A DNA stretch of 64,000 bases, from contig PSQN01000002.1 of NCBI GenBank assembly GCA_002989075.1, forward strand, positions 1,070,097 through 1,134,096. The letters are read 5' to 3'. This DNA is from Arthonia radiata (taxonomy: Eukaryota > Ascomycota > Arthoniomycetes > Arthoniales > Arthoniaceae). Shown here piece after piece: positions 7,436-55,406 of this stretch. A model generated the notes under the pieces. It did not search any database. It was not told the origin of the DNA and saw only the letters and a program-made list of their open reading frames with translations. The position numbers and the translations under genes were made by a program. The first letter of the stretch is position 1, and the number at the start of each line of letters is the position of its first letter.

Positions 7436-10400
7436 TCATCGATCAACGCCAATCCCCAGGCCCATACTGGGGCTGCGTCTCCCGCCGGTGCCAGCGCCTT
7501 CAGTAGATGTAGGAGGACCAGCCTCCGCAGATTTGTCTCGATCTTCGAGAAGGGGCGAGCTCTCGATTTGCGGCGTCGTAGGCGCTGACTTTGCAGCCCT
7601 GAAAGAGGAGACTCTGCGGCCTAGTGGCATCCTACCCGCCACGCCTAGCCTGCCTTGACTTCGCGGAAGCGGCTCACTCTCCAATGGACTGTCGGTCTCA
7701 TTGCCATCATTGACATGATGTCGAATCATCGTTGTGTCCACCGAAGGAGACGCATTCGTGTAATCGCTGTCTCCCGTCTCTGAGTCCTCCCTCCGGAGTT
7801 CGGGCCTCGGCGCTGGTGGCAGCGGTTTCTGCTTCAAGTACTGCGTTTCGCCTTCTTTGCTACGCATCTTCTTGCGCGGGCGGACATTCTCGTCGACGAA
7901 TGCCAGTAAATCATCCCAGGCGCCTTCTTGCGTCTCATCCATGCCGTGACTCGTTACCGGACGTGTAGGCGGAGGACTTCGCAGGGGGCTCTCCCAGCCC
8001 CAACGGCTACGTGCCTGCGCAGGACTTATGTTGTCGTCGCCAGAAGCGGGGGTTGGAGGGCGGGTGGAGCGCTTTGCGGAGCGACCGCGTGCAACAAGCG
8101 CTTGCATACCTTGCAATATGCGAATATCGCCCATGCCAAGGTTTGCGGCGGCATCGCTTGCTTGTGAAGGTGCAGCTTTGGTGAAGAGGAAAAGAGCGAG
8201 GATGACGAGGACAACTGTGACTTGCACAGCCATGAGACGTCGTTGGCCGACCACCTCCTCAGCGAGCAGCCGCACTTGCTCGTTCAATAATTCCCTCTCT
8301 CGTTTGCCCTCTTCGCGCTGATTTGCAAGTTCAAGGACCGTTGATTGCCACAGCTGATCATAGTCGGTCCTCGCTGATGCAAGCTCCTTGAGCACCGTTT
8401 CGTTGAGCGTGGTCAAGAACGATGCTGTCTTCGCAATTTGGCGCTTCTCGACTGCCGTGAATGCGTCACGAAGCAGCATCGACTGTGACTCAATATACTG
8501 GAGCGACAATGTTGCATTGGCTTCCAGGAGCGATACACGCTTCGAGAGGGTCTTGAAGAACGACTCTTGTGTAGCTGGCTGTGTTGCCGCTGGTGGGACT
8601 GGTGCAACCTGCTGCGTGGATGCTGTAGAATTGGTGGCCGGCGCTATCGGCTTGGTTTGACCAGATTGCGGTACGGATTTGGCAGATTCGGCGGCGCTTT
8701 GCTCCCGAGCTGATGCACTAGATTCTTTCGAGTTTTGCGCAGTTGAAAAGTTGCCTCGAGCATGCGAGTTCGACACTGTGACTGTGCTCGCATTTGTTAC
8801 AGGGTCGATAGATGTGGCTGACGATGTCGCGGTAGTGGCATTTGCTGGTACAGAGCTTGATGCAGCCTCAATGGAAGAGTTCGCGCCTGCGCCTGCGCTC
8901 ACTGTCGCGTTTGCAGCGGGCAAGGGTGAAGCCGAAGAGCTCGAAGGGGTCGTATCTGTGAAGATGGACTCGCTCGAGCTTGATGACGGAGAAGAGCAGG
9001 AGATTTGGTCTTGCATGCTCGCAATGGCAGCGTCCATTAGATTCACATCGCGTTCATGAAGTGGTACGCCAGATGCAGCCACAGACGTAGCCGGAGACTC
9101 GGTGGATGAACTTGATGACTGTGAAACTTCTGTTGGACTGGCTGGTGAAGCTGATTCTTCCGGCTGCATTCCTGCGATCGGCTCAGGTGGCTGAACGCTC
9201 TTCGCTTCATATGGGCTCACAGGTGTGATGATAGCTTCTGGTGGGCCAATGTTACTGCTTGCAGCAGGGACCGCGACGACCTCATTCGTAAGCTCGATCT
9301 CATCGTCTGAGGTGTCCACCTCGCCGCGTGCGAGCTCCTCTTGGTGGCGGTAGTCTTCCATCATCGTCGTACCATGCACTCTGAGAAGACTCAGTGGGCA
9401 ATAATATTCGTTGCCGTAATGGGTTAAGAACTCGATACGAATGTACTTCGCCCAGATAAGCGGATTCTCCACAAGAAATGCTTGGATCTCACGGGTATTG
9501 CGAGCCTCATAGGTTCCTAAATCCCGCCATTTATCAATCTTGACTGGATATCGATCGGACACGCTCACCCGGAAAGTTCTAAACATAGAGCTGAAGAACT
9601 CGAAGTTGGACAGAACGACGGTGTCGATCTGAATGTACTCACACAACTCGACGATCAAGAATTTGTTGTCCATCGAGCACTCGTTCAGCATATAGCTGTC
9701 CTTATTTTCTACAAGGACCGATGACGAGCTCTTGCATCGCGGATTTGTCTTCAGTACGTTTGCGGCGCAGTCAAATGAAGCGTAATTGAAGCGCTCTTTG
9801 CAGGTTCTGCCTGCATCTTTGCTGCGTGCACCAGAAGGCCCAGACGGCGACGAAGCAGTTGCATCTGAGCCTGCTGAGCGCTCGCCAGGGGCATTAGAGG
9901 GCCTCGAGTGCGAGCCTCCGCCAAAGCCAGAGAAGTCGATATCAATCTCGGAATCTTCGCCCAGAGTGTCGAGAGCTGCGCCGGGCCTGTGGCGCTCGCC
10001 TGCTTCTCCTGTACTCCTTGCTCTTGCTAAGGCCTCTGCTGACTGACCGGCATCACCGAGCTTCTGCTGCTTCCACTCTTCGAAAGAGAGGAAGTTGGCG
10101 CTTTGGAGAGCAGAGTCTGCTTCTGTCTCGGCTATGGATGCTTCACTTTGTGTCTGTGACGGTTCCTCGCTCTTCCCCTGATCCTCGACGGATTGAGTTT
10201 CCGCATCTTGGTCTGAGGCAGTAGGTATGCTTTCAGATTGTGTCGCATTGTGCGCAACCGCAGGTGGCTGCCCCTCGGAGGCGAGAGTGACATTCAAAGC
10301 GCTCTGTGATACCGATTTAGTTGGTACATTGGACACTGTAGAGCCTTTGCTGGTAGTTGAAGTGTTCTGCGGTGCCCATGCGGTCCGAAGACACTGTTGC

Positions 10401-10561
10401 GGTAGCGTATGCGTGATCCAGTTCACGGAACCTGTTGCGCACGTGGACTGCTCATTTGTAGTGGAGGATGCGGAACTCAAGGCCGCGTTCGCAGCGACGA
10501 GCGAATTGTCATAATGATACAGTGCTATCAAAGCCAGGCCGCGCCAAATTCTCATCGGCAT
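7436..10561 (-). CDS. SLP1: SUN-domain ER protein SLP1
   Basis: Single-exon gene; the ATG at 10561 gives 1041 residues and opens with a signal-peptide-like segment (MPMRIWRGLALIALYHYDNS). A Ser/Ala-rich stretch follows, then the SLP1-type SUN domain at about residues 255-390: NYASFDCAANVL, SSSVLVENKDSYMLNEC, FLIVELCEYIQIDTVVLSNF, FRTFRVSVSDRYP, IRIEFLTHYGNEYYCPLSLL. A long low-complexity Ser/Thr/Ala region leads to a predicted coiled coil and one membrane segment (about residue 785, VTVVLVILALFLFTKAA), then a disordered tail. In yeast Slp1 acts with Emp65 in the ER membrane and protects newly made luminal proteins from ERAD. The domain order here fits that family. It is transcribed away from the NACHT gene, whose start is about 420 bases off. 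Confidence 0.85.
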   Translation of the reverse strand: MPMRIWRGLALIALYHYDNSLVAANAALSSASSTTNEQSTCATGSVNWITHTLPQQCLRTAWAPQNTSTTSKGSTVSNVPTKSVSQSALNVTLASEGQPPAVAHNATQSESIPTASDQDAETQSVEDQGKSEEPSQTQSEASIAETEADSALQSANFLSFEEWKQQKLGDAGQSAEALARARSTGEAGERHRPGAALDTLGEDSEIDIDFSGFGGGSHSRPSNAPGERSAGSDATASSPSGPSGARSKDAGRTCKERFNYASFDCAANVLKTNPRCKSSSSVLVENKDSYMLNECSMDNKFLIVELCEYIQIDTVVLSNFEFFSSMFRTFRVSVSDRYPVKIDKWRDLGTYEARNTREIQAFLVENPLIWAKYIRIEFLTHYGNEYYCPLSLLRVHGTTMMEDYRHQEELARGEVDTSDDEIELTNEVVAVPAASSNIGPPEAIITPVSPYEAKSVQPPEPIAGMQPEESASPASPTEVSQSSSSSTESPATSVAASGVPLHERDVNLMDAAIASMQDQISCSSPSSSSSESIFTDTTPSSSSASPLPAANATVSAGAGANSSIEAASSSVPANATTATSSATSIDPVTNASTVTVSNSHARGNFSTAQNSKESSASAREQSAAESAKSVPQSGQTKPIAPATNSTASTQQVAPVPPAATQPATQESFFKTLSKRVSLLEANATLSLQYIESQSMLLRDAFTAVEKRQIAKTASFLTTLNETVLKELASARTDYDQLWQSTVLELANQREEGKRERELLNEQVRLLAEEVVGQRRLMAVQVTVVLVILALFLFTKAAPSQASDAAANLGMGDIRILQGMQALVARGRSAKRSTRPPTPASGDDNISPAQARSRWGWESPLRSPPPTRPVTSHGMDETQEGAWDDLLAFVDENVRPRKKMRSKEGETQYLKQKPLPPAPRPELRREDSETGDSDYTNASPSVDTTMIRHHVNDGNETDSPLESEPLPRSQGRLGVAGRMPLGRRVSSFRAAKSAPTTPQIESSPLLEDRDKSAEAGPPTSTEGAGTGGRRSPSMGLGIGVDR

Positions 10562-10977
10562 CGCCCATGGTGTGGTAGGAAAAGAGTCCGTCTTCGAGCA
10601 GGACAAAAGGAAGTCTAGGTCTACAGAATTACCTCTTTGGGAAGCTTGTATACAAATCTGTGCTCAGATAACGCTCGAGCATATCTTCTTTCATCGGTCA
10701 AGTCTTTCCTTCAAATTATCTTACACCCGAACAGAAGAAAGCATACAGCGCGTCAGCACCGCGATGCAGACGTGCGCCAGAGCAAATTTCATGAGTCTAT
10801 CATTTAATGATTGCTCCAATCCAAACACCCCAAGCATCAGTCAGATTGCACTAATGTGAAATACAGAGTAACATGAGTACGTGCAGGATCAGCTCCATCT
10901 GCCTTGCATGTGGAAGCTGACATTCATGACTTTTCTTCATCCTCCTCATTCTTTTCTTACTCACTTTGACTTGCCCC
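10562..10977. promoter_or_regulatory. divergent intergenic region (SLP1 / NACHT gene)
   Basis: About 415 bases between two divergently transcribed starts, so it should contain both promoters. I see no clear TATA box or named regulatory element. A CT-rich run (about 10920-10965) lies just before the NACHT start, a common fungal promoter feature. Confidence 0.35.
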
Positions 10978-13900
10978 ATGGACCCCGCGACTGCCGTCCA
11001 ACTCATAAGTGCCATCGTCGATCTCGCCTTTACGATATATGCCTACGGATCAGCCGTCAAACAAGCATCCGCCGACATACGCCAACTTCAAAGTGAACTG
11101 TTTGGCCTCAAGGCTGCCTTCGAGCATATTGCCTGGCTTGTAGATGGCCGTACTCTCGCCTTTACAAACGGTCATTCCAAGATTGAACTGCGCGACGCCC
11201 TCTCAAAGCAGGACGCCTATGTCGATGTCGCACCATCCCTGTTAGAATGTGATGAGACTGTCAGAGCTCTCGTGGAAGCACAAGCGCTCCTTGAGCAACT
11301 CCATAAACTTGTGGGAAAGCCACGGGATTCCCGAGGTGCGCGTATCTTCCAACGAGCGTCATGGCCCTTGAGGCGAAGTAAGTCGATCGAGTCTCAATAC
11401 ATTCGGTTCTGCAGTGGCTTGCCAGCATTGCGTGATTGACAGCCCACTTTTCGTTCCTACGAAGCCATCACGTGTGAGAGATTTTCACCAGCTGGGCATA
11501 CCGTTGACATTTTGCTCCCAGGCGAGACCCTTAAGTATACTCAGCAGCTTGAGAGGCTCAAGACGTATTTCATACTCGCCACAACATCAGACAATGTCTA
11601 CAGCTGCCAGCAGATCCTCTCGGAGGTCCGAGCCTTGCGCACTGATTTTGTTCAACAGCAAGCTGTTGCTGACGATAGGGCCTTGCGCCTAGCAACGCGG
11701 AAATGGCTATCTCCTTGCAAACCTCAAGTGACGCTGAAGTCTGCGCTCACGGACCATCAGACTGGAACCGGAAGATGGTTCCTTGACGGATCTTTGAAGC
11801 AATAGTACTCCGGGGAGACGCAAGAGCCAGCTCTGTGGCTCAAAGGAAAGCCGGGCTGTGGGAAAACTGTGCTCTTTTCAACCGCCGTTGACGTGCTCAC
11901 ACGTGAAGAGTATTCAGTTTCGGTAGCCTACTTCTTCTGCTCTATCAATGATCCAGCTACACAGGAAACGAAAAACATGCTTGGAAGGTAGGCTTCTCCA
12001 TCTTGACCCTGCATAATGTTTCCAAATGTGTACTCCACATCGCTGAGGCGACCACTTTCCGTGGTCGTCTACCCACATTTTTAGATTTGGTGTCGGAGAA
12101 TGAACGACGATCCTTCCGGCCTGTCCTCATTCCGACATGGTTTCTCACTTCCTTGTCAAACCAGCTGAAGCTATATCAATTGAAGCACGTTTGGTGTACA
12201 CGAATGACTGATGTATTCGATTGCAGCTTCGTCACTCAGCTTCTCGACCAGCGTCCATCTCTTTGGCAAATGGCCGAGGATTGCTACAGTAATGTTGGGG
12301 GCAAAGATGGCGAGATACCCAAGCCAGCATCTATTGATGAGCTTCTAGTCATGCTGGAAATAATCTGCGAGTCACTAGAGCCCGTGTGTTTGTTTTTGGA
12401 TGGTCCGAACGAAAGTTTCAACGGCAGTACGCTGGCTGAGGTGTTACTAGATGCTGCCTCATCGACTGGGTTGTTCCGCCTCCTGATATCTAGTACCGAC
12501 GATCTTCAGCTGAGCACGATGGATAAGTCTCTGCATCAACTCCTGGTGGTCGACATGAGCCTTGATCATGTCCATGACGACATTGGCATCTTCATTGATG
12601 CATGGATCGAACACGACAAACGGTTGAGTACTCTTCCGCTCGACAACCAGATACTGATCAGAGAAAGTCTTCAGAGCAAGGCAGAAGGCTCGTGAGTCAC
12701 CCACTCTTCTCTGTCCTTTCCAAGCTTGAGGTACAGTGATGTCACGTCTTTCAATCGTACAGCAGTGTCTACTATTTGGGTCCCTTTCAACGGGCAAACA
12801 ATAAGACCGAAGGCTCGAACGAATTATCGCACATGCTTGCTGACTTATCAACAGCTTTCGCTGGATCGCATGCCAGCTTGAGACGCTTTCGAAATGTCGG
12901 TCGCTTCGCGGTATTCGTCTTTCCATCGAACGCGTCCCCCTATCGCTGTCTGATACCTACATTGCCATTCTCACCTCGATCCGCGATGTCGATCGGCCAA
13001 TCGTACGTCGAATGCTCTGCTGGACCACGTTTGCCCTTCGCAGTCTGTCTTTGAGCGAAATAGCCGAAGCCGCCATCTTTAACGCATCGACACAAGACTT
13101 TGACGTCGAGGCACGCCTCCTGGAACCTCTGGACGTCGTACGCTGTGCCAGGAGCCTCTTCAGATACGAGGCAGAGACCAAAACCGTTGCTCTTGCGCAC
13201 GCGTCCGTGCGCGATTTTCTCACATCGGAAACCATTCGCTCGAGCGCCGCGAGCTTCTTCCATCTCAACGGTCCCGCAGCTATGACCGACTTGACGTGCG
13301 CGTGTGTCAACTACCTCTGTCTACCTGCATTCGCTTCCGGCTACCAACTCGATCACGGTACCTCCAGAGCACGCCGTCAAGCTTGGCCGCTACTAGACTA
13401 CGCCGCCAACTACTGGAGCAGGCACGTCCGCAAAGTCCTCAGCTCCGCCAGCAACGCAGATTCAAGCATACCAGCAGCGCTCCAAGCGAGCCTTGACAAG
13501 TTTCTCAAAAGCTCCGACGACCCGTACGGCGGCTGCTTCGGCGCATGGTACTCTTTCGTCTTTCCGCACGGCTCTCCCAAGATCTGGCAAACGAAGCCGT
13601 TATATTTCGCCGCGCGCGAGGGGTTCGGCCCGCTTGTGCGTGCGATACTCGCGTCCCCCAGCGGTAGACGGCAGCTTGAGGATCGAGGGGGCCGGCAATT
13701 CTCGTCGCCGCTGCATGTTGCGTCTACATACGGGCATCTGGAGACTGTCAAATTACTTCTGGACGCAGGAAGTAAGGCTGGCCTAACCTTCCTATTGTTC
13801 TACTTCACGCTGTGTTTCAAGCATGCTTACGTTGTTGTGTCGCAGGCGACCCGCGCGAGGAGAACGTCCGCGGCCAGTCAGGTATCCAGTGGGCACGCTA

Positions 13901-14182
13901 CGATCGGCATGAGGACGTGGTGTCTCTGCTCCTTAAAGCCGGCGCTGATCCCAGCCGCATCGACACCGGATCTCCAAAATGGGAAACGTTCGTCGAAGAG
14001 GCCGACCATTTAGTCGCCGTTATAAAGCAAGAAAGGGAGCCTGGTCCTCAAGTAAGTCTGCTAGTTCGAGTCGGCGGGATGCTGGGATGAGGTGTCGACG
14101 TTGGCTGTGGACCCAAAGCTTCAAGATGAGTTCTTCTGCGGTCCTTTTTCAGCAAGCGGCTGCGCTGGTTGCAGGGCACTGA
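10978..14182 (+). pseudogene. NACHT-ankyrin NLR with one in-frame TAG
   Basis: Exon model: 10978-11377, 11492-11987, 12227-12691, 12855-13771, 13846-14051, 14153-14182 (838 codons, all phases consistent). The N-terminal domain (MDPATAVQLISAIVDLAFTI...) is of the fungal STAND N-terminal type. Next come GTGRWFLDG, a P-loop GKPGCGKT (about residue 253) and a Walker-B-like LFLDGPNE (about 353; the family usually has LDGLDE). The NACHT-associated helices FRWIACQLETLSKC and RPIVRRMLCWTTFALRSLSL follow. Ankyrin repeats are at the end (PLHVASTYGHLETVKLLLDAG, HEDVVSLLLKAGADPS). The only break is TAG at 11803-11805 (codon 238), where relatives usually have an aromatic residue just before the NACHT domain. 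A 78-nt in-frame intron (11728-11805) could remove it, but would also delete GTGRWFLDG. STAND NLRs act in fungal nonself recognition and programmed cell death. Confidence 0.7.
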
Positions 14183-40418: not shown

Positions 40419-43400
40419 TCAAGGCGCTCGAAAACTGTGATCCGTCAAGGAGGAGTGGCGTTCCGGGCGTCCCGCGAGCGCTCGGAGGAGAGAGCCTGGC
40501 CCAGGACCGGGCTCACGACTAGGCATCTGAGACCTTGCGCCGGCATCTAAAAGGATCTTGACTAATTCCTTGTCGCGGCGCTTTTCAGCTTGGAAGAGTG
40601 CGCTCCCATACGTCTTACTGTGTGCGTTGACGTCAGCCCCAGAATCGATGAGCAACAGTACAACCTCCAGTCGACCTACACTGGAGGCGATTTCGACGGC
40701 GCTTCCGAAATAACTGTGATATCTGCCCTTGAAGTTGGGATCGGCGCCAGCTGCGAGAAGCAGTCGAACGGTTTCTACGTGAGCCCCGTAGGCGGCAGCG
40801 TTGAGGGCACACCCAAAAGTTAGTGCGACCTCGATATGAACGTTGGCGCCCCGCTCTAGTAGCACGCGCACTTGATCCTCATTGCCATAGTACGACGCGA
40901 GTTGCAATGGAGCTTCAAAGAAAAGCTCATTGTGCATGTTGACGTCCGAGCGAAGAAGCAGTTTTCGAAAAGCGGATGGGATCTGTGCCCTTGTAGCAAA
41001 GTACAGCGGAGATGGACAGTCGCCTGTGAGTCCCAACCATAAGAATGAGCCGTGGTAGAAAAGGCCACGCCAGACGAAGAAAGAAGGGTGTCTGAGGAAG
41101 GCGAGCACAAGATGGGCGATGGGGCCATCGCCGTCATCAGCGTCCCCTGCGAACCGGAGCCAGTGTTTCGCGACGTGCTTTGCCCAGGGCCTCTCCTTCA
41201 GCATCAAATCCGTGTAGTCTCTGTAGCTCCATAGACTCATCAAATAGGATAAGCACGTCCGTACCACGGCTCTTTTCACAGACAAAACTGAGAAATCTGG
41301 AGCGATGTCGACATGAACCCTCGTGGATTGTAGGTATTCTTTCACGGAAGCGTGCGAAAGGCGGACTATCCATTGAGTATCCTCAACGCTATCCGCCTCC
41401 AAGAAATTGTTTCGAGGATTTTCGTCGGCTTTGACATGGTGAAGGGTGATGAGGCCAGGGCAGAGCCGGCCGACATCTGTGAGGCGCCGCATACGACGTT
41501 CGGATTTGAAACTGATGGCCACGGAGTCGGTAGCTAGCGCGTCAACTGCCTTTTCAACGGTTAGCGGCCGGTCTGACAACAAGAGCAACTGCAGGAGGAG
41601 AAAGGCCTCCCGTTTGTATCTGTCGTTGATGTTCTGGACCATTCGATGGTAGGTCTTATCGAGCGAATAGGGCAATCTGGAAAGATTTTTCTTGAGTTCA
41701 TGGACATCCAAGCATTCCTTCAATTCATCGAGCAGACATGCTGCCCATCTGAACCTGCGCCGCATTTCAGCTTTGACCGCATAGTACATTCAATTCAAGA
41801 GGTACACTTGCATTGACCCACCATTACTTGTCAGCTTTGCTTCAATCATACACACAATGGGCTTGTCGTTGCGCCAACGGTCGAAGTCCATACTCTCGTA
41901 CAGTCGCGCATGCACGTAGTGGCAAAAGTCAAGTTCCTGCAATTCTGATCCCAAGAAATCGTGCTCTCGAGTCACGCTACTGCGACTCAAAGCTACTCGA
42001 ATACTTTCATCGTTCCGACTCAACAGGATGAGTCGAAAGAGCGGCGGACGTCTTCGCAATAGCTTCTCATCAAGCCACTGGAGACTATGGAAGTGCTCGA
42101 CACTTTCGTCCAGGCCATCGATGACGAGCCAAGTTTCTGAGAAGTGAGCAAGACCCCTTGCAATGATATCTTTGAGGGCTCTGTCAGACGGCTGTCTTCC
42201 TCCGTCTCCATGTGCTTTGTATGTTTCAAGCAAGGAATGCCACATTGTCGTATCTTGGCAGCAGAATTGAAATGCTAGCGATCGTAACATACCGGAGTGA
42301 GTCCTCTTCCTGTGGTCTTGAAAGTCGAAGTAGAAGTACAGAAGCGCGACATGTCTCCCGACTACCATGTCCTCTAAATGTTCGATGATTGACGCACTCA
42401 AGATTGTCTTGCCGCATCCTGCATGTCCGTGAATCCAGAGAAAGGAGCTCTCAATCTGGCTTATCCATGTCTTGAAGGCGTCGCACGACAGGAAGTCAAG
42501 CCCAGTGCCTTTCAAGCGCTGTCTCAGGGCTTCATTGTAATTTGTTGATGGGTCCGGCGCGGATAACCACGCAGTGATCGCACTTCTTTTGAACATATTA
42601 GTCACGCTGTTGACCTGAGATCTTACGGTCTGGACATCTGTATTCGGAGCCGTAAGTCAATTGTGTCCCTGATCTGCTGCGAGCGACCTAACCTGTCTTC
42701 ATCGCTTCGAACGCTGGCGGCATAGCGTACATCGAAGATGGGTGGATGGTCTCGAGAAGCTCTCTTGCCCATGCGGCTGCTGAAGCTGCTGCGTAACGCT
42801 GCCAGTCGTCATTCTCGTGGAAGTCACAGTAATCGCAGATGCCGCGGATTACGACTACAGCGAAGGATTAGCAACGCGTTGACAGATGTAGACTCAGGAA
42901 ATATGTGCAAGCAGCAACTGATCACTAAGCTTTCGTACACGATCGCATGGCTGAGAGGTGCGGAACGGCGATGGAGCACCACAGGCAGGTTGCTGCGTGA
43001 ATATGCGCATCAATGGCAATATTACCTTTTTCATGAGACTTACTGCAGGGAAACTCGTTCATTAACCCAGCCGCCTCCATTTCGAAACACAGCATTCGAT
43101 GCTGTGACCATAAGGCATTGCGCACGGTGCCAGACTTGACCACAGTATTTCCGGAAGCAATGACACCATAGTGAGCCATGGGCTCAAGACCACTGCGCTG
43201 CTCTCGGGAAATGACCATGTTGCTATTGCATTGAAGACAATCTTTGGCGTGGCTGATGTGCACATAGTCGGCTTCAAACAGCTTGTCTGATGAAGTGGGC
43301 CGCCTGAACGTAGTCGGTAAATTGGTCAGAAAGCTCAGCCATTTGGCTTTTCTAAGTTCATGGTTGGACTTCAATTTCGAGACGGCCGTCAGCAGCCTGG

Positions 43401-45569: not shown

Positions 45570-45934
45570 ATGGTCAACTTCACCAAGCTGGCGACCCTCG
45601 CCTTTGTCGGCGCCGTGGCTGCGAGCCCGATCGACCGTCTGGATGCGATGCTGGAGAAGCGCCAGTTGAAGTCGTGGGATAACGATGGGTATGCCAATCT
45701 TATCGCGAAGTTGACGCGCATGGATGATTGCTGATTCCAATGATTAGATCCACCCGCTGGCCCTCCGTCCAAACCTGCTACGACGCCCTCTGCCGCGGCG
45801 GCGAAAAGCAATACGTCTCCCGCTGCCACTCCATCACCCAATGCGGCAAGGGCACAGGCGGGTGTGCGGAGTGGTACTGCGCTCGCATTGAGACGACCAA
45901 ATATGTCAATCAGACTCTTCCGGTTGTGCCGTAG
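45570..45934 (+). CDS. small secreted cysteine-rich protein
   Basis: Two exons: 45570-45688 and 45748-45934 (59-nt intron GTATGC..TTAG); 101 residues. A clear signal peptide opens it (MVNFTKLATLAFVGAVAAS, cleavage near residue 19). A short propeptide ends in a Kex2-type KR (LDAMLEKR). The mature part of about 70 residues has six Cys in C-x4-C ... C-x5-C ... C-x4-C spacing (TCYDALC, RCHSITQC, GCAEWYC), consistent with three disulphides. I recognise no family. Size, signal peptide, Kex2 site and even Cys number are typical of fungal secreted effectors or antimicrobial-like proteins, but that is inference. It lies between the intact NLR (divergent) and the tandem gene array. Confidence 0.75.
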
Positions 45935-46483: not shown

Positions 46484-46860
46484 TCAATCTGCGCGCTTTC
46501 CTTCTGTAGACGAGTCAGGTTTCTGTGAACGCGCTGAGTGAGACAAAAACAACTTCTCTGGCCATATTGTGGATGATCGCATCACTTACCGCGAACATCA
46601 AATGGTGCTGGTGTTCTAGCCCAGGGTATCTCGCCTCTTGCTTCTTTGCAATACTCTGGGTCGCCACCGAGCCAGAGCCATTCCGTGGACCATTGTAACA
46701 ACTTCTGAGAATGCCAGTTAAGATGCTTCCGATGAAACTCCTGTTTCGCATCGTCACCCTTCTCAATGGCCGCTTTCTCCTCGCCAAGGTGGTAATTATG
46801 CTTCTTGCTATAGTGGCTTCGCTGGTCCCATGCCTTTTTCTTCCAGGGACCCTCAGACAC
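46484..46860 (-). pseudogene. tandem small-gene family, copy A (broken)
   Basis: Relic of the two-exon family. Homologous exon 1 is 46590-46860 and exon 2 46484-46522 (KPDSSTEGKRAD), with a GTAAGT..ACAG intron. Family sequence: SEGPWKKKAWDQRSHYSKKH ... LLQWSTEWLWLGGDPEY, then in the next frame AKKQEARYPGLEHQHHLMFA. Two lesions: the start codon is GTG (46858-46860) where copy B has ATG, with no in-frame ATG upstream; and one extra T near 46650 breaks the frame inside the conserved D-P-x-Y-A motif. Beyond the break the frame still ends in the family's QHHLMF and a good donor. Confidence 0.65.
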
Positions 46861-47309
46861 ATTTGATAAGCAACAATGCCGATGTGGTTTTCAGTGTTCG
46901 TAAGACAATAGCAAAAGTTTATCGACTCGGCATGAAGCACATTGCTTGTAGGCTACGATAAATACGCTAATCGAAGTATTGCACGCAACACGCTGTCCTC
47001 CTTTGCATCCGAACCATCCGAGCATCTCGCAACATGAGACTGCATCCGCCAAAGCTGGTCAGCACCACAAGCTGGGAGTCTCACGCGGACGCGCACCGAG
47101 TAGAGTGCCGACCCGCCTGGCTCTGCGCCCATGCCCAAACCATCCCGTACAAGCCTGACTCACACTTGTTCCAACTTCTTTGACGAAAACAGGAAGTGTC
47201 GAAACCCCGGCAGCCGAGGGGTGTGCAACCTGGTTATCTTTCTAGAAACGTCCAGCTGGTTGCGCGTCGGTACTCGACTCTACTCCTAGTATAGAGCTGT
47301 CGTCGTATA

Positions 47310-47679
47310 GCTCTTGCGTAGCAACGGGGTTGATAGCGCCACACCCGAACATTACTAGGACCACACCCACACGTGACTGTCAATACACAAGTTCTGTCAG
47401 TAGTTTGAGTGCTACTAAGAACAAACGCAATCTTTGCCAGTAAGTACTTTACGTTGCCCCTTCCCCTAGAGGGCAAGTATGTCTTATAAAACGTGGGTCG
47501 AGCGCGAACCTAGGCGGGGCCCGCAAGAAGGTCCTTCTATAGCGTAGCGAAGGAAAGGGTACGTGCAGGAGGACCTAGCTGACCGTAAGGGCCGGGTGGT
47601 ACGGAGCATCTTGCAGTGCCAAAAAGGGTGTGGCCCCAGTAACTTGGGCGTGTAGCACTATCAACTCCAGCGTAGAAGC
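47310..47679. repeat. imperfect inverted repeat, possible small foldback element
   Basis: The minus strand of 47310-47381 and the plus strand of 47611-47679 match over about 70 bases: GGTGTGGTCCTAGTAAT / GGTGTGGCCCCAGTAAC, then GGCGCTATCAACCCC / TAGCACTATCAACTCC. Differences are mostly transitions. The arms enclose about 230 bases. This could be a MITE-like or foldback element, or two inverted copies of a relic. The surrounding stretch 46861-47951 holds no gene. Confidence 0.45.
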
Positions 47680-47951
47680 AATGTGATTTGTTTTCCATAT
47701 TGGGTCTAGCGTTATTTACATACTGATTTGCGCGTTCTTTCTTCTGGATATCAGCTTGTGAGGGTTCGGCTGTCATCCGCTGGCCTACACAGAATCAATG
47801 CTTTATTCAGATAAGGTTTCGTGCCATTTTAATAATGTCACTTGCACACTAGATTGCAGCGCCCAGACCACCGCACGAACACGAACAGCGGACAGACCAC
47901 ATCCCTCTGCCGACTTCACCTGGTCTCCGCTTCCTCCGCCATGATCTATTC

Positions 47952-48352
47952 CTCATCCCCCTCCGGATCCATAAACTGAAACGACCTCTTCTTCATAGGG
48001 GGGTGCGGTCTCTACACCTCCTCGCCAGCCAACATACCCGACCGATTCCACGGAAACTTCCGCTACTTACTGGAAACATCAAATGCTGCTGGCTATTAGT
48101 GCTATAATATCTTGCCTCCTCCCTAGCCGCGTGTCCATCGTGATCTGACCTAAGGGCCACGCGCACTCTGCCCCAAAACTGCATCTCCTCAAAATGGTAA
48201 TCACCCTTCTCGTCGTACCACCCTTTCTTCGCTTTCTTCGCTTCGTCGACCCCCTCATGAGCCGCTTCCCACTTGCCAAGGTAGCAGTCGTGCTCTCTCC
48301 TATGGTAATTGAATAATTCCGTCACCTTTTTTGCCCAGGGGCCTCCAGACAT
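47952..48352 (-). CDS. tandem small-gene family, copy B (intact)
   Basis: Exon 1 48071-48352 (94 codons from ATG), intron 48012-48070 (GTAAGT..GTAG, 59 nt), exon 2 47952-48011; 113 residues. Exon 1 runs MSGGPWAKKVTELFNYHRRE ... FEEMQFWGRV ... REEARYYSTNSQQHLMFP; exon 2 starts RPHPP, as in copies C-E. The protein is rich in Lys, Glu, His, Tyr and Trp and predicted mostly helical, with no signal peptide or membrane segment. I do not recognise the family. In a second frame exon 2 reads TPPMKKRSFQFMDPEGDEE before a stop, so the exact 3' splice phase is not certain. It has a start, no internal stop and good splice sites, so I call it intact. Confidence 0.65.
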
Positions 48353-48625
48353 GGCTAGGTTCGTAGATCGTTGCTGTAACGTCGAGGTATGTTAGTTGAT
48401 AAATTGTCCGATGACGTGGAGTGGCAACTGCAATGTAATTGGTAAAACAGCTCTACATATCAGATGTGCTGAAGAAAACCAGCTGTCCCCCCCAACCGCG
48501 CAATGTGGCGCTCCAAAAATAGCTCGCAGAATGTGCTGAATGCACTTCGAGAATATGGATGTAATTTCTTTGGCACATTTCGCGATAGGGGACGGGCCCT
48601 TGGGCTGGCTGCAGACAGTAGGCTA

Positions 48626-49061
48626 TAGGTCTCTACCTACATTAATCGGGTTTCTTTGCTTCCTGTCTCACCTTCCTAGGCGGATGCGGTCGCTACAACC
48701 TCCCTGTCAGCTGGAAACACGCGACCATGCAGGAAACCCTACTCACGGGGAACATCAAATGGTGCTGATGCTTATAGCTGCAATATCTTTCTTCCTCCCT
48801 AGCCGCATATTCTGGGTCCCGGAAGAGTTCGTCGGACTCTACAGACCAATGCATCATCTCGTCTCCGTGATAGTGGCACTGCTTCTTATGGAGGTCCTTT
48901 TTGGCCTCGCCTTATACGCCCTGCTTATCGGCTGCTTGCCATTTTCTGAAGTAGTGATGCATCTCACCCTTGTGGTAGCCGGTTAGTTCCTCTACCTTGG
49001 TCGCCCAGATGCCGCCCGGTTTGGACCCCGCTGGAGCGCGCATTTGCATTGGTTGTGACAT
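48626..49061 (-). pseudogene. tandem small-gene family, copy E (nonsense)
   Basis: Exon 1 48747-49061 from an ATG: GGIWATKVEELTGYHKGEMH, FRKWQAADKQGV, stop, GEAKKDLHKKQ, HYHGDEMMHWSVESDELFRD, PEYAAREEERY, HQHHLMFP. It is followed by a GTGAGT donor and, after GTAG at 48693-48694, exon 2 starting RPHPPRKVRQEQ and closing at a TAG near 48626. The only lesion is TAA at 48912-48914 (codon 50). Everything after the stop is still strongly conserved, so the loss is recent or the stop is a polymorphism. The plus-strand open frame over the same interval is an antisense shadow. Confidence 0.7.
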
Positions 49062-49782
49062 GCTGATTGCTGACGACAATGAGCGATTCGATGAGATGTG
49101 CTTGAACGGATTTTCCGTGAGGCAAGAACGAGAAGCATATTGGAATTGCTGGGGAAGACACGTTTCCCTCTTTTTCAGCTCTCAACACTGACAGCCGAAA
49201 TGGCTCGCGGAATGCTCTGTATGTAATCTGGGAAACGGAATCGAATGTTTGGGCGAATTCTCCGATAGGGAGACGGTTACGCTTGGAGCGCCTTGCTGTC
49301 ATGCGTGCTGCAAGAATTTGTTGTCGTTGGATCAGTTCAATTCATGTGCAATTAGATGCTTTGCAAATGTGTCGCCACAAGGGCCTTGGACTTTCTGCTG
49401 CCTCTTTGACTTGCGCTACCAGTAACCCTCGGAACTCATATCGACGGCAGCTCAAAGGAAACGCTTGAGGAACGAAGTCTTCCCGGTGTACAGATATTTT
49501 TATTAGGCGTGCTGCATAGTATTCGGCGAACAAGGGAGCCTTCATGCCAGAGATCTTGCTTGCGCTCGACCCTTGCAAGCAACATTCCGGCTCTTCGCTG
49601 ATCGCCTAGTCAACGGCCTCTTGTTCTTTATGCTAGCGAGAATCCCCTGCCTCTGCGACTCTCACCGCGATGGAGCCTGGAAATTAATCCATAGGTAACA
49701 TGAGGCATGGTGGCTCTGTTGATCGTCAGGTATCAGCATCTCTAATAACGACGCAAGCCAGATTACCTGATTACTGGGAGCC

Positions 49783-50189
49783 TCAACGGATCTCGGCATT
49801 CGCATCATTCCTACCAGCTTTGGGGGGCCGCTCCGGCCTCTACGAATTCGTTGTAAGTTAAGTCTCTTACGTCAGTGAGGCGTGTCTGTATCACTACTTA
49901 CTTTGAACATCTTTTCATGCTGGTAACCTTCATTGTGGTATTTCGCTTCTTGTGTATACGCATACCCCCGATCTTTCTGAAGCTCGTCGGTCTGTCTTGC
50001 CCAAAACACTAGCTCGCCTGCGTGGTGATCCTCCACTTTTCTATGTTCGTCACTTCTCGCCTTCTCGCCCCGTTCTTGGGCTAGTTTGGCTTTCCCATGG
50101 TACTTCAGCATCTTTCGCTGGTGTAGTTTCAGCAAGTCCTTCACTTTCGCCACCCATGGGCCCGAAAGGTGAGGCGCGCTTGAACCCAT
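49783..50189 (-). CDS. tandem small-gene family, copy C (intact)
   Basis: Exon 1 49902-50189, intron 49840-49901 (GTAAGT..GTAG, 62 nt), exon 2 49783-49839; 114 residues. Exon 1: MGSSAPHLSGPWVAKVKDLL, KLHQRKMLKYHGKAKLAQER, VEDHHAGELVFWARQTDELQ, YAYTQEAKYHNEGYQHEKMF; exon 2: RPERPPKAGRNDANAEIR. It is the cleanest family member: ATG, no stop, consensus splice sites. Highly charged, helical, no signal or membrane segment. About 130 bases upstream starts the conserved block also found before copies D, F and G. Function unknown. Confidence 0.7.
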
Positions 50190-50320
50190 TCTGAAGCTCA
50201 GAGCTTTTGTCAAATGAAAGCGTGAGCTGATCTTCAATATTGCAGATGTCTCGTATAGCGAGACCAGGACGTCTCTCAACAAGTTATCTTTGCTCCTTCC
50301 TTAAGTCTAGCTATACCAAC

Positions 50321-50480
50321 GCACATAGGTGACACGTTGACGTTTCCTGTAATGTCTGATTTGGGGCATATTATCGAGCCTTCTCAGGCCAGCAACACAG
50401 CACCTAGCCTAATACAGACCTGTCTGCGTCGTGTAATGGCGCTCTTTTGTTATTCTTAGCAGCATTAGATAAGTTTCAAA
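50321..50480 (-). promoter_or_regulatory. conserved upstream block of copy C
   Basis: A roughly 130-160 base block, upstream of copy C on its coding strand, that recurs before copies D, F and G. On the plus strand it contains GGTGACACGTTGACGTTTCC, ATTATCGAGCCTTCTC, ATACAGACCTGTCTGCG and TGGCGCTCTTTTG. Conservation upstream of four genes points to a duplicated promoter. Confidence 0.5.
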
Positions 50481-50800
50481 TCGCTGCAGCATTTTGACGC
50501 ACGCCGACTTGAGTTAGTCATTTGTAATACTGCCCTGCACACCGAGGGATGTTGTTGTTGTTCACATTCTTGTTATTTTTTAGTTGCTGTGTCTTGGATC
50601 GTCTCTGAAGATAAGGTAAATTCTCAGAGGTCACACTTCAGCCTATAATGCTCTATAACACAGTTTGCATGGCCAATTCTCAGCGTCTCTGTTTACGATG
50701 CGGCCGCACGACTAGATCTCTACGGATCTCGACGCGTCTTTGCATTCACATCGTCATTTGATGGGTTTGGGTGGTGGGTCTGGTCTCTGTAAGTATTTTG

Positions 50801-51122
50801 TTAGCCAGTTTTACTACTTAAGTCTCTCGTATCCGCAACCTTTATAGTAGACATCTCCTCATAGCGGTATTTCTTCTCGTGGAACTTTTCCTTTTGCCGA
50901 TATGCGTATGCTGGATCCTTCGAGAGCTTGTCGGTCTCTCTCGCCCAATGCATCATCTCGTCTCCATGGTGATCAACATGTTTTTCATATTCATCTCTTG
51001 ATGCCAAGTCGCCTCCGTCCTCGGCTGCTCCGTATCGTTTACCGTATTTTTTTCATCTTCCGAGTATGGAGGTCCAATAGGTCTCTGACCTTTGCCACCC
51101 AAGGGCCTGAAAGGTGATGCAT
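50801..51122 (-). pseudogene. tandem small-gene family, copy D (homopolymer frameshift)
   Basis: Starts at ATG 51120-51122: MHHLSGPWVAKVRDLLDLHT, RKMKK, then the frame shifts. From the next frame: YGKRYGAAEDGGDLASRDEY, EKHVDHHGDEMMHWARETDK, LSKDPAYAYRQKEKFHEKKY. The break falls in a run of seven A on the coding strand (plus-strand T 51047-51053); six would keep the frame. It may be a real mutation or a homopolymer error. The usual donor after the M-F motif is altered here (MSTIK then GTTGCG), but an acceptor TTACAG and an RPDPPPKP-like exon 2 are still visible near 50780-50790. Confidence 0.65.
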
Positions 51123-51276
51123 GGTTGTGTTCAAGATATCAGTTGATCTCTCAGAGACTGCTAGCCAAAGAAAGCTGATCCCCTTCAGAGTGGTGTGGAA
51201 GATGTGTCGGGTAGGGAGCCTCATGCCTCTTTCAAGATATTGTCCAAGGAATGTGTTTTCAAGTGCGACGGAAGCT

Positions 51277-51425
51277 ACGTACAGAGGTGACACGCTGGCA
51301 TTTCCTACTGTGTTTGATTTGAGGCCTATGATCGAGCCTTTCCAGAACAACAACACGGCACTTTGCCTAATCCAAACCTTTCTGCGATGATCTGGTTTTG
51401 TCATTGCTTGCAGCGCTAAACAAAA
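51277..51425 (-). promoter_or_regulatory. conserved upstream block of copy D
   Basis: Second copy of the upstream block: GGTGACACGCTGGCATTTCC, ATGATCGAGCCTTTCC, CCAAACCTTTCTGCGATGA on the plus strand, ending near CTTGCAGCGCTAAA. Confidence 0.5.
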
Positions 51426-51990
51426 TTGGGCTTGCGCGCCAGCCCGACGGGGAATGTTTATTCCCTTGCGTACTCGACGTACGAGGCACGTCATGATCAC
51501 TGCGAACGAATCTCTGCACTTGCTTCAGCACTCGTCGGATCTGAAAGCTGTTTCTAGTCTCTAAATTGCATCGATTAGGTCGCAAGCCTAGTTCGTGGTC
51601 ATCTTCGTTGACGTAGTCGCGAGTCCCAGTGACAAAGATTCATAAAGCCCTTGCCTGTTGAACCAGAGTTCGTTTTATCAAGCCACGCCCATGCCCAAAT
51701 GGCCTGCTGTCAATCAGTTATAATAATTTTTTGTGAGTCAGTCCCGATGAGTTGTGGAACATTGCACAAACTAATGCAAGGTGTGAATGTAATTAGGCAG
51801 ACTTAGCAAGAAATTTGTAGTGCAATAATACTCATTGTTGACCGACTAATGCTGTCTTCGTATCGTTATAATGGTGCCTGGACATAGTACAGAGATCGTC
51901 GAGAGTTGATGCAGCTTTTTGAGTTAGACTGGCCTGCATTGATATCAGACAGGCCAGTCCGGCGATGACTGCTACAATATAAGCCAATCT

Positions 51991-52488
51991 TCAATCAAGT
52001 CTTTGGGGTTTGGTTCGGCTTAGGTGAATCCCCGTGATGGACCGCCACTGAGCGTCCTCTTCAGGCAGCAGAGATTGCCCGCATTGGGAACAAAATTTGG
52101 TGAGCACGACGTTTGCGGGTTCTGGTGGAGGCTCGTCCTCGGTGGACAATTCGTATGTGAAGTCTTCAGCTCACTTCCGGTACAGCCCATCACTCACGTT
52201 CCACATCCGATAATGATGGTACCCCGCCTCTTTGTACCTTCCCTCTTCTTGTTTCCGAGTATTCGGGTGTTCCAAGGGATGTTGGTGCTCTCACTTCTAC
52301 CAGCGCCAGTCTCTTGCGTGATGCTCAGCTAGGGCGCGATACTGGCTACTTGTCGTCGTGTCGCTCTTCTCCTCAGCTGTCTCCTTTTTCTCGAGAATCT
52401 CCAATGCCTTAGATTTCTCTTGCTGCATTGACCCTTTTTTTTTTGCCACCCATAGGCCCGAGTAGGGGTCGTCGGGTGAACAGTCCAT
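51991..52488 (-). pseudogene. tandem small-gene family, copy F (three stops)
   Basis: One continuous frame of 166 codons from ATG 52486-52488 to TGA 51991-51993, interrupted by TAG (52297-52299), TGA (52291-52293) and TGA (52171-52173). It begins SGLWVAKKKGSMQQEKS, continues RALAEHHARDWRW, then EEGRYKEAGYHHYRMWN, matching the family frame. After the last stop it encodes EDFTYELSTEDEPPPEPANV and KFCSQCGQSLLPEEDAQW. The C-x-x-C there looks like half of a zinc ribbon; no second pair is seen. A GTAGAA donor at the first TAG could remove some stops by splicing, but I could not find a phase-consistent alternative. Confidence 0.55.
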
Positions 52489-52621
52489 TGTCGGGTCTCG
52501 AGCTTTCTATCAGCGACGAATGGCTAGTCTTGAGCATTACCGGAACATCGCATGCTCATGACACGACTTACATGTCTATTGAGATCTTACGTGGCAACAC
52601 GTGCCCCTACTTACCTACTTC

Positions 52622-52752
52622 GGCACATAGATGACACGTTAACAGTTCCTAACAAGTCCGCTTTCAGGCCCATTATCGAGCCTTCTTGGCCCGATACAAA
52701 CCTTTATGCGACGACTCGATTGTGCTCTTGTTAGCAGCATGATTCATTAAAT
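52622..52752 (-). promoter_or_regulatory. conserved upstream block of copy F
   Basis: Third copy of the upstream block: GATGACACGTTAACAGTTCC, ATTATCGAGCCTTCTTGG, ATACAAACCTTTATGCGACG, TTGTTAGCAGCATGATTCAT on the plus strand. Confidence 0.5.
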
Positions 52753-52780
52753 AATCAAGTTCCACTCGCGTGGAGGCCAA

Positions 52781-53333
52781 TTAAAGGCCGTCTGCTGCGC
52801 TGCTTCTCCATCCACAGCAGTCCGGCTGGGACACATATTTCACATCCGCCGTGTGCCTCTCGTACGTCTCGTCCGGGCGCTCCCTCAACTCGCGCAGTAT
52901 TTCCGCGCTCTCTTCTCGGTGTACCCTCGAATTCTTCTATACAATCATGTGATCAGCTGAGTAGCCAAAGCCCAGGTCTGAAGACCCAAGCACTTACGAA
53001 AGGCATCTGGGTATGATCTCGTTCGTGCATCTCATACCGCTTCTCGCGCTCTTCCGCATACGCTCGCTTCTTCATTAACTCTCGTTCCCGGTTGAGATCT
53101 GCCAGCCTAGCTACATGATGATTCCACAGCGCAGAGTAGAAGACGACGCTCGTATCGTGACGGTTTGTTGGGGGCTGTGGGTGCTGTTCCCATCCATGGT
53201 CGCGGTTGCGCTCGTTATACTCGTTATACTCGTGCAGCTCATTGATGGCCTTTGAGTGTTGTTGCCACGCATGCTTGTGGTTGCGTTCGTGATGCTCGTG
53301 CAGCTCTTCGAGCTTTTTGGCCCAGGTGGTCAA
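52781..53333 (-). pseudogene. tandem small-gene family, divergent copy G (no ATG)
   Basis: Exon 1 52998 to about 53333, intron 52937-52997 (GTAAGT..ATAG, 61 nt), exon 2 52781-52936 (51 residues). Exon 1: TTWAKKLEELHEHHERNHKH, then repeats of LHEYNEYNERNRDHGWEQH type, LWNHHVARLADLNRERELMK and HERDHTQMPF; exon 2: HREESAEILRELRERPDETY and a C-terminal PDCCGW. The intron position and phase match the rest of the family. The frame is open but its first codons are TGA, CCA, TCA, AGC, TTG: no ATG is available, and the sequence aligned with the ATG of copy D is ATC. It could be a pseudogene, or start in an upstream exon I did not find. Confidence 0.5.
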
Positions 53334-54013
53334 GCTTGATGGTCAATATGAGGGTGTGCTAGGATGTTTCGAGAGCAAATGGCGCTCTACAATCGTGTGT
53401 TGGACTTGATCTGTGTGTCAATAGACGACACGTTGGCGCTTCCGCAGCGTGTCCATCCTAAGAAACATCATCGAGCGTCCTCCCGGCCTGCCAACTGGTT
53501 ACGGGCCCAATACAGACCTGTTTGCGATGACACTATTGTGCTTTTTCGTCATGGCTCAACAGATGACTTGATCATCGCACAAACAGATCTCGTACAGACC
53601 AGCTCGAAGAGATGCTTCCTGCTGGAGCAACAATACGGGGGTAGAGATTCTACCAAGAAAAGCCGTACGGCGATACTAGATGGTACACCAGGGGCATCAT
53701 CCTACCCCAGACATAGTACATCATAGACACACCGTCTCACCTGGACGAAAGACGAAGACATTCAGGCAACATCGACTTCGTCCTAGGCGCTTACCGGTCG
53801 CCTGAGGGACACTTGGTCCCACAACGCGTCGTCATCACTGACGAGCGAGCGTGGTAATGCATCGTAAGCAGGTCACTGATAAGCCTAGCTCTTTAAAATT
53901 GTTGATACTGAAAGAGAATTGTTGTGCATATCCAAGTGAAAACGCTTGCGAGGATGTTAGGGTAAGTAACCCTCAAGCACCCAAACTTTTGCAGCGCGTA
54001 ATTACACGTCTCG
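53334..54013. other. intergenic after the array, includes fourth upstream block
   Basis: Plus-strand 53418-53560 is the fourth, most divergent copy of the upstream block (GACGACACGTTGGCGCTTCC, CATCGAGCGTCCTCCC, ATACAGACCTGTTTGCGATG). The rest, up to the POS5 start at 54014, has no gene I can support. Confidence 0.45.
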
Positions 54014-55406
54014 ATGGCTAGTCTTTACAAGCAGAGACCCATGTTGGCGCTGCGACATGGCTTTGCTCGAAACTCGGGTCAGCCAGTTCGGCATTTGTCT
54101 ACATCAGTAGTCCGTAGAGAGCTCCGCGACATCGGCGACTTGCCGACGCGCATCAAGCCAAAATATGAAGGTAGACAAGTCCAGCAGGCTGCGCAGTATG
54201 ATATCTGACGAGAACACAGAGACCAAACGGCAGGACTTGCTGTCGCTGAGGTGGCCATCACCTCCTCGCAATGTGCTCCTTCTCAAAAAGAAGCATGCGC
54301 CAGCCGTTGATGAAGCTTTCGTCGAGTTCCTGAAACATACGCAATTATCCTACCCTTCGACCTCGGTCATACTCGAGAATGATGTCGCTCATGAGCTTCA
54401 CGAGCGGCTGGACGCACCAGTCTATACTCAAGTGCATGAAGGCTGCCGACCAGCATATGAGGAAAAGGTCGACCTGATTTCGACGCTTGGCGGAGATGGT
54501 ACGATCTTGCACGCAGCGTCGCTGTTTTCACACACTCCTTCGGTCCCGCCGATATTGTCTTTCAGTATGGGCACGCTTGGATTTCTGGGCGAATGGAAGT
54601 TCACCGAGCACAAGCGGGCCTTGCGAGAAGTGTTCGTGTCTGGCGCGGATACTACCAATGCAGCATTGGGTCAAGAGGCACAACAAGCTGGCATCATGAG
54701 AAGCGATGGGGAGGAGTCCGAAAGCACAGCGCAAGATCTACAAGCCTCAAGCTGGGCGACTGTCCGGGGCAAGTCCATGGGCCATGGCCGAAGCGCCCGC
54801 GTACTGCTGAGGAACCGCTTGAAGGTCGCGGTATCGTCGCCAGGCGTGAACCAGTCTGTATCGGACTGCATGGATGCAAAGGCGGACAGATTCGCCATGA
54901 ACGAAGTCATCATCCATCGCGGTTCTGATCCGCATCTGGCCATCCTCGAAGTATTCGTTGGCGGCCGCTTTCTCACAGAAGCCGTAGCGGACGGCATGAT
55001 TATCTCCACGCCCACGGGCAGCACGGCCTATAGCCTTTCTAGTGGTGGCAGCATCATCCATCCACTCGTCCCTTCGCTACTTCTCACACCAATCTGTCCT
55101 CGAAGTCTCAGCTTCCGACCTTTGGTGCTTCCAGCCAACACGCCTATCACGCTACGCCTGAGCGAGAAGAATCGTGGCCGCTCAGTTGACGTCAGCATCG
55201 ACGGCGTGAAGCTCAGCGAAGGGTTCCGCGTTGGCATGGAGATCAAAGTCCGAGCGGAAGATGTCAAGGACGAGCGTGGCAATTGGACTGGAGGTGTTCC
55301 GTCAATTGTGAGAGCTCATCCAGGCGCCGATGCAGGGAGTGAGGACAGTTGGGTTGGCGGCTTAAATGGGCTGCTCAAATTCAACTATCCTATGGGTGAA
55401 GGATGA
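54014..55406 (+). CDS. POS5: mitochondrial NADH kinase (POS5-like)
   Basis: Two exons: 54014-54106 and 54171-55406 (64-nt intron), 442 residues. Exon 1 is almost exactly a mitochondrial presequence (MASLYKQRPMLALRHGFARN, RHLSTS). Exon 2 carries the NAD-kinase fold: VDLISTLGGDGTILHAASLF (GGDGT about residue 137), SFSMGTLGFLGEW, MNEVIIHRGSDPHLAILEVF, DGMIISTPTGSTAYSLSSGG, and a beta-rich C-terminal part (LVLPANTPITLRLSEK, VDVSIDGVKLSEG). It phosphorylates NADH/NAD+ to make NADP(H) in the matrix, needed for Fe-S cluster upkeep and oxidative-stress defence in yeast. An insert of about 55 residues (ALGQEAQQAGIMRSDGEESE...) lies after REVFVSGADTT. The intron was set by phase; the donor is GTAGTC, a weak match. 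Confidence 0.88.

Follow-up and report, generated by a model that had tools for sequence, protein, structure and literature searches.

What are the small, related genes that follow one another along one strand of an Arthonia radiata contig, how did they get there, and are any of them still working? They lie in a stretch of 64,000 nucleotides (nt) that we call the window (GenBank assembly GCA_002989075.1, contig PSQN01000002.1, positions 1,070,097 to 1,134,096; in our numbering, G000:C16:1070097-1134096). Seven of them, copies A to G, form a head-to-tail row at 46484-53333, on the minus strand; copy G is a probable member only. We found that this is a fungal family whose numbers rose through tandem duplication and are now falling as copies decay, or in other words, a case of birth and death. 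Lineage-restricted tandem families with such a history are well known. We would give an even chance to our best explanation as a whole, in which the members of this birth-and-death family form helical hairpins with a histidine-rich metal role, but its parts differ in strength.

That the array and the family are real is close to certain. We searched the genome (33,499,693 bases in 16 contigs; the contig with the array has 1,973,310 bases) with exon 1 of copy B and obtained eight places, which correspond to seven copies: A, B, C, D (in two pieces), E, F, and a dispersed copy, H, which is on the same contig as the array but 0.92 Mb distant (G000:C16:192885-193145). The seven places other than B itself had expect (E) values from 2.9e-12 to 0.0045. 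These values rule out chance as the source of the family likeness, and shuffles rule it out for pieces of G, F, and A. The search also bears out the seven-copy minus-strand array that had been proposed in a sequence-only reading of the window, with G as the doubtful case. In the order of transcription, the copies are G, F, D, B, E, C, and A, and their starts are 845, 1366, 933, 1125, 712, and 1490 bases apart (with the start of E taken as 49064). The GPW that was said to begin a shared pattern is strict in A, B, C, and D; it is replaced by GIW in E, GTW in H, GLW in F, and TTW in G.

Genome searches with C, G, H, or A as the query gave no further accepted copies. Similarly, when a profile was compared to the window and to 20 stretches of 10 kb, there were no extra copies around the array or H (the weakest other match listed had E = 9.8). 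A candidate ninth copy at G000:C1:2160717 (E = 0.049) was judged from a reading of the locus to be a chance match. Because the genome searches score only the best candidates, the total of eight copies is a lower bound. The window holds no N, so there is no assembly gap in it.

Just two of the eight copies, B and C, are whole in the family frame. Each has two exons:

49902..50189, minus strand: exon 1 of copy B, intact, 96 codons, with its ATG at 50189 and a GTAAGT donor at 49901; modeled with AlphaFold2 (AF2)
49783..49839, minus strand: exon 2 of copy B, 18 codons and a stop, starting with R-P-E-R-P-P, after an intron of 62 nt (49901-49840)
48071..48352, minus strand: exon 1 of copy C, intact, 94 codons, with its ATG at 48352 and a GTAAGT donor at 48070; modeled with AF2
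47946..48011, minus strand: exon 2 of copy C, 21 codons and a stop, starting with R-P-H-P-P, after an intron of 59 nt (48070-48012)

The predicted proteins have 114 amino acids (aa) for B and 115 aa for C, and both introns are phase-0. Thus, the sequence-only reading was correct that these two copies are intact, but its range of 113-114 residues does not cover C. Its phase-0 intron with a GTAAGT or GTGAGT donor fits both B and C, but not D, which has lost its GT donor.

The family is very probably coding and constrained. In protein-guided codon alignments, the ratio of nonsynonymous to synonymous differences per site (pN/pS) was 0.28-0.81, and the upper 95% bound was below 1 for 12 of the 13 pairs; the sole pair with an upper bound of 1 or more was the 5' piece of E with A (0.81, 0.55-1.30). 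A check for dN/dS constraint had been suggested, and it came out in favor of the family: pN/pS was below 1 in all 13 pairs. As protein-guided alignment lowers pN, we also made DNA-only alignments of nine pairs. Codon phase was kept at every aligned base in seven of them (the fractions for the other two were 0.94 and 0.72), and the excess of third-position differences was significant in three (B with the 5' piece of D, p=0.0018; C with E, p=0.0089; and B with C, p=0.032). In the alignment of C with E, the ends of the exons, the donor, the acceptor, and the start of exon 2 are conserved, while the interior of the intron has drifted. These comparisons support past protein constraint on the family. 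Three points weigh on the other side: protein-guided alignment makes pN/pS come out too low; the third-position excess was not significant in six of the nine DNA-aligned pairs; and all of the comparisons are between paralogs, because no homolog from another species was found. Also, because the pairs include broken copies, these tests do not prove present function.

What might the intact proteins look like? AF2 gave the same three helices for exon 1 of B (predicted local distance difference test [pLDDT] 91.0, predicted template modeling score [pTM] 0.76) and of C (pLDDT 89.5, pTM 0.78), namely a long helical hairpin and a short third helix; the two runs used overlapping alignments and are not independent. 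We are confident, short of certainty, in this predicted hairpin fold. We strongly infer that B and C are soluble proteins of about 115 aa, with exon 1 encoding a long antiparallel hairpin and a short third helix; the helical part would be followed by a short tail that contains proline and is encoded by a separate exon. The maximum hydropathy of any nine residues within the first 40 aa is 0.71 for B and -0.01 for C, versus 2.42 for a neighboring open reading frame (ORF) that looks secreted.

The proteins are also rich in histidine, which makes up 8.9% of 790 residues in 10 pieces of the family (range, 3.2-16.1%), versus 2.63% in 15 ORFs from the window. One histidine column is invariant in both alignments. 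The hairpin might act, via its conserved His, Glu, Trp, and Tyr residues, as an intracellular histidine-rich protein that binds or buffers metal. B (predicted isoelectric point of 9.7) and C (6.4) differ strongly in charge, and they may have diverged in partner or location as well. We consider this histidine and metal mechanism to be doubtful. Histidine-rich segments are hardly exceptional (at least 8 histidines are present in 236 of 7027 background segments of 114 aa), one piece of F is just 3.2% histidine, and ExxH, with a Glu three residues before the invariant histidine, is found in only one of six aligned copies (B); all of these count against a metal role.

With the same family and fold, the proteins could instead be small coiled-coil adaptors that form homodimers or heterodimers (perhaps B with C), bind no metal, and have their histidines incidentally. 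Hairpins shaped like this one often serve as interaction modules, and the structural neighbors of the models include Cdc37, a chemoreceptor, ESCRT-III, the arms of seryl-tRNA synthetase, and designed hairpins. The difference in charge between B and C also fits with an adaptor. Against incidental histidines stand their level of 7% or more in 9 of the 10 pieces and the invariant column. We put the adaptor somewhat below an even chance; metal handling, which we regard as unlikely, ranks below a plain role in protein interaction.

The closest analog that we saw to histidine-rich hairpins of this kind is the DELD family of the root symbiont Piriformospora (Serendipita) indica, for example PIIN_05872 (Dld1; PDB 5los). 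Both families combine histidine enrichment with a two-helix hairpin in about 100-135 aa. DELD is described as a histidine-rich hairpin family that is taken to be secreted (PMC3192844). In contrast, B and C do not have a hydrophobic N terminus (by the hydropathy measure, which is not a signal-peptide predictor), and they end with ...NAEIR and ...EGDEE instead of the C-terminal RSIDELD. For these two reasons, B and C are not members of DELD. The hairpins of ferritin-like proteins or rubrerythrins and of encapsulated ferritins are different as well: ferritin-like di-metal proteins have a conserved ExxH in the second helix, which the array family does not, and the best Foldseek match had E = 1.2.

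The other copies in the array are broken or diverged:

46590..46862, minus strand: exon 1 of copy A, with an ATG at 46862 that starts an open frame of 91 codons, in phase with the donor
46484..46522, minus strand: exon 2 of copy A, K-P-D-S-S-T..., 12 codons and a stop, after an intron of 67 nt (46589-46523)
48747..49061, minus strand: exon 1 of copy E, with one in-frame TAA; the first in-frame ATG is at 49061 and a GTGAGT donor is at 48746
48642..48692, minus strand: exon 2 of copy E, R-P-H-P-P-R..., 16 codons and a stop, after an intron of 54 nt (48746-48693)
50844..51122, minus strand: exon 1 of copy D, split between two reading frames by a frameshift in the A-run near 51050; no GT donor
50754..50786, minus strand: stretch of copy D that resembles exon 2, R-P-D-P-P-P-K-P-I-K and a stop
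52198..52488, minus strand: exon 1 of copy F, with two in-frame stops (TAG and TGA) and a GTGAG donor at 52197
52998..53333, minus strand: exon 1 of copy G, the most diverged, with no in-frame ATG, an internal direct repeat, and a GTAAG donor at 52997
52781..52936, minus strand: putative long exon 2 of copy G, 51 codons and a stop, longer than the second exons of the other copies

The frameshift in the A-run of copy D is possibly a sequencing error. Copy G, whose direct repeat (53172-53299) is 53 nt long and 75% identical, was missing from the genome matches of B exon 1, and it was not listed at E<=10 by a profile of B, C, E, D, and H. When G was shuffled, the original score was reached by 0 of 1000 shuffles for the first 40 aa, 4 of 1000 for the last 45 aa, and 1 of 1000 for the whole exon. 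Because of these scores, a donor at the expected place, and a block 5' of the gene that it shares with copy F (42 nt at 81% identity), G is probably a diverged copy.

Copy A is altered in a different way. For about 70 residues, its ATG frame is shifted by +1 from that of its paralogs; a second shift then restores the frame before the conserved Q-H-H-L-M-F. The family frame of A (GPW...) begins at a GTG and is likewise open, so both frames of A are open. The start reads ATGTG in both A (46862) and H (L006:1496), and therefore the family frame opens at GTG. The ATG frame of H reaches a stop after seven codons, and the family frame of H has no in-frame ATG. The +1 frame contains five stops in B, two in C, five in E, two in H, four in G, and none in A. 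The open +1 frame of A is unusual here, but it may be due to luck. It is a long shot that the family comprises new, Arthoniomycete-restricted, intracellular histidine-rich hairpins that handle metal ions and arose independently of DELD, and that copy A became a new protein via two cancelling frameshifts, with about 70 residues in a frame where its paralogs carry stops.

How old is the array? Protein identity between the compared pieces is 17-70%, and the proportion of synonymous sites that differ (pS) is 0.61-0.94. Because silent sites are near saturation, we view this as an old birth-and-death array rather than a recent amplification for dosage. Nor is the copy number maintained, as five of the seven copies in the array (D, E, F, G, and A) are not intact members of the family. 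The sequence-only reading had suggested selection for dosage or diversity: the saturation and the broken copies argue against dosage, while diversifying selection may have acted, although even the highest pN/pS, that of E and A, is 0.81 (95% range, 0.55-1.30). The two best-scoring pairs are neighbors in the array (B with the 3' piece of D, 47% over 58; and C with E, 47% over 89), as expected from unequal crossing-over. A is the exception, and a point against this history: it scores best with H and not with its neighbor C. Repeat-induced point mutation was rejected as the cause of the decay, as its composite index was negative in all 32 of the 2-kb pieces of the window.

Might the entire array be a relic, with B and C recently dead or unexpressed? 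The small number of whole copies would fit with this. However, B and C have kept the ATG, the frame, the donor, the acceptor, and the stop, which their closest relatives, D and E, have not, and we consider a relic to be improbable.

Blocks of similar DNA lie 5' of several of the genes:

50319..50428, minus strand: 5' block upstream of copy B, a candidate promoter element that was duplicated along with the genes
51277-51386: related block of copy D
52623-52738: related block of copy F, in two parts
about 53504-53545: probable related block of copy G

The blocks of B and D are 78% identical over 110 nt, as compared to 67% over 210 nt for the coding DNA of the same two copies. Because the block is the more similar of the two, it is possibly a promoter element under constraint. 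The pattern AGGCTCGATNATNNGCC, which was derived from three copies of the block, occurs in the genome exactly three times, all within the array and in those same copies; with one mismatch allowed, it occurs at 10 further places, versus 4 for a reversed control. A transposon origin for the block was rejected, as exact AGGCTCGATNATNNGCC is confined to the array (the pattern being built from array copies). When the full 110 nt were used as the query against the genome, nothing but the block itself was listed; this search is insensitive, as it missed the copy at D, which is 78% identical.

We then considered whether the family has known relatives. Pfam had no family at its cutoff for the copies scanned, and NCBIfam had none at E<=1. 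In the protein database, no candidate shared three words with B, and an alignment of seven pieces gave 2283 candidates but none at E<=1. A library of viral folds had no matches at E<=0.001, and a literature search for a GPW motif and for orphan or tandem families of filamentous or lichen fungi found no relevant paper (one match was from Drosophila). The earlier statement that the family matches nothing known therefore stands for Pfam, NCBIfam, and the protein database. As a yardstick, we used a SUN-domain protein from the window (7439-10606, minus strand), whose best hit had 63% identity across 98% of the length (among 120 listed of 2353). The best three named hits among those listed were from Coniocarpon cinnabarinum (59% identity, 96% coverage), Alyxoria varia (52%, 47%), and Chrysothrix (45%, 83%), all of which we place in the Arthoniomycetes. 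Given a best hit of 63% identity, the source species seems to be absent from the database, which makes the negative search for homologs weak. Within the limits of these searches, the family is unrecognized, and this instance of it appears to be new.

The array is flanked on one side by an NAD kinase gene (54165-55403). On the other side is a small ORF (about 45573-45934, plus strand) with a hydrophobic, secretion-like N terminus; Pfam gave no match to its first 53 codons. Farther along, a NACHT/NPHP3_N ORF and then an ankyrin ORF occupy 40419-42605 (minus strand) in head-to-tail order, with a stop or an intron between them, and the nearest end of this pair is about 4 kb from the array. A weaker but similar NACHT/ankyrin pair is at 12003-14013 on the plus strand.

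A genetic conflict element (a spore-killer, an incompatibility gene, or another driver family) would account for the turnover of paralogs and for the many dead copies, and the lack of homologs found outside and the NACHT-ankyrin ORFs in the window are consistent with it. Filamentous fungi often carry NACHT-ankyrin genes. The family shows constraint rather than positive selection, no toxin-like feature was recognized, and the nearest NACHT-ankyrin gene is not adjacent, so this seems very unlikely.

The family might also be an offshoot of the FF domains (PF01846, of the Prp40/TCERG1 type), which would act in transcription or splicing via phosphorylated tails. The family profile matched an FF domain of TCERG1 (2doe) with E = 0.0072, or 1.1e-4 without copy G, across about 50 positions including W-x6-[LV]-x2-D-P-x-Y. 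Also, the best sub-threshold Pfam match was RhoGAP-FF1, to copy G alone (E = 0.067 and 0.053); it is located elsewhere in the protein. However, there was no match in the reverse direction: PF01846 was not listed for any copy in the Pfam scans at E<=10, and a genome search with it (which scored best candidates only) gave six places, none in the array. With hhalign, comparisons to four FF domains from the same genome gave probabilities of 1.2% and 2.5% over 18-19 columns (P = 0.042 and 0.019), and FF profile scores for four of five copies were within the bulk of their shuffles (94 to 315 of 500 scored as high; for H, 12 of 500). The FF fold is built of short helices, and a loop precedes the conserved Trp, whereas AF2 predicts one continuous helix of at least 30 residues across the would-be loop (the models and the fold were compared by helix pattern, not by coordinates). 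We rejected membership in PF01846, and it is because of the profile match at 1.1e-4 that we still give a distant FF origin a very slight chance.

Orphan families account for a large unexplained share of fungal genomes. As it stands, this one is compact and well supported but functionally silent. If the idea about histidine and metal is true, then the family would be an intracellular counterpart to a symbiosis protein family of an unrelated fungus. More broadly, with two intact members, several dead siblings in one place, and a confident predicted fold, the array is a convenient case for the birth, retention, and loss of a gene family.

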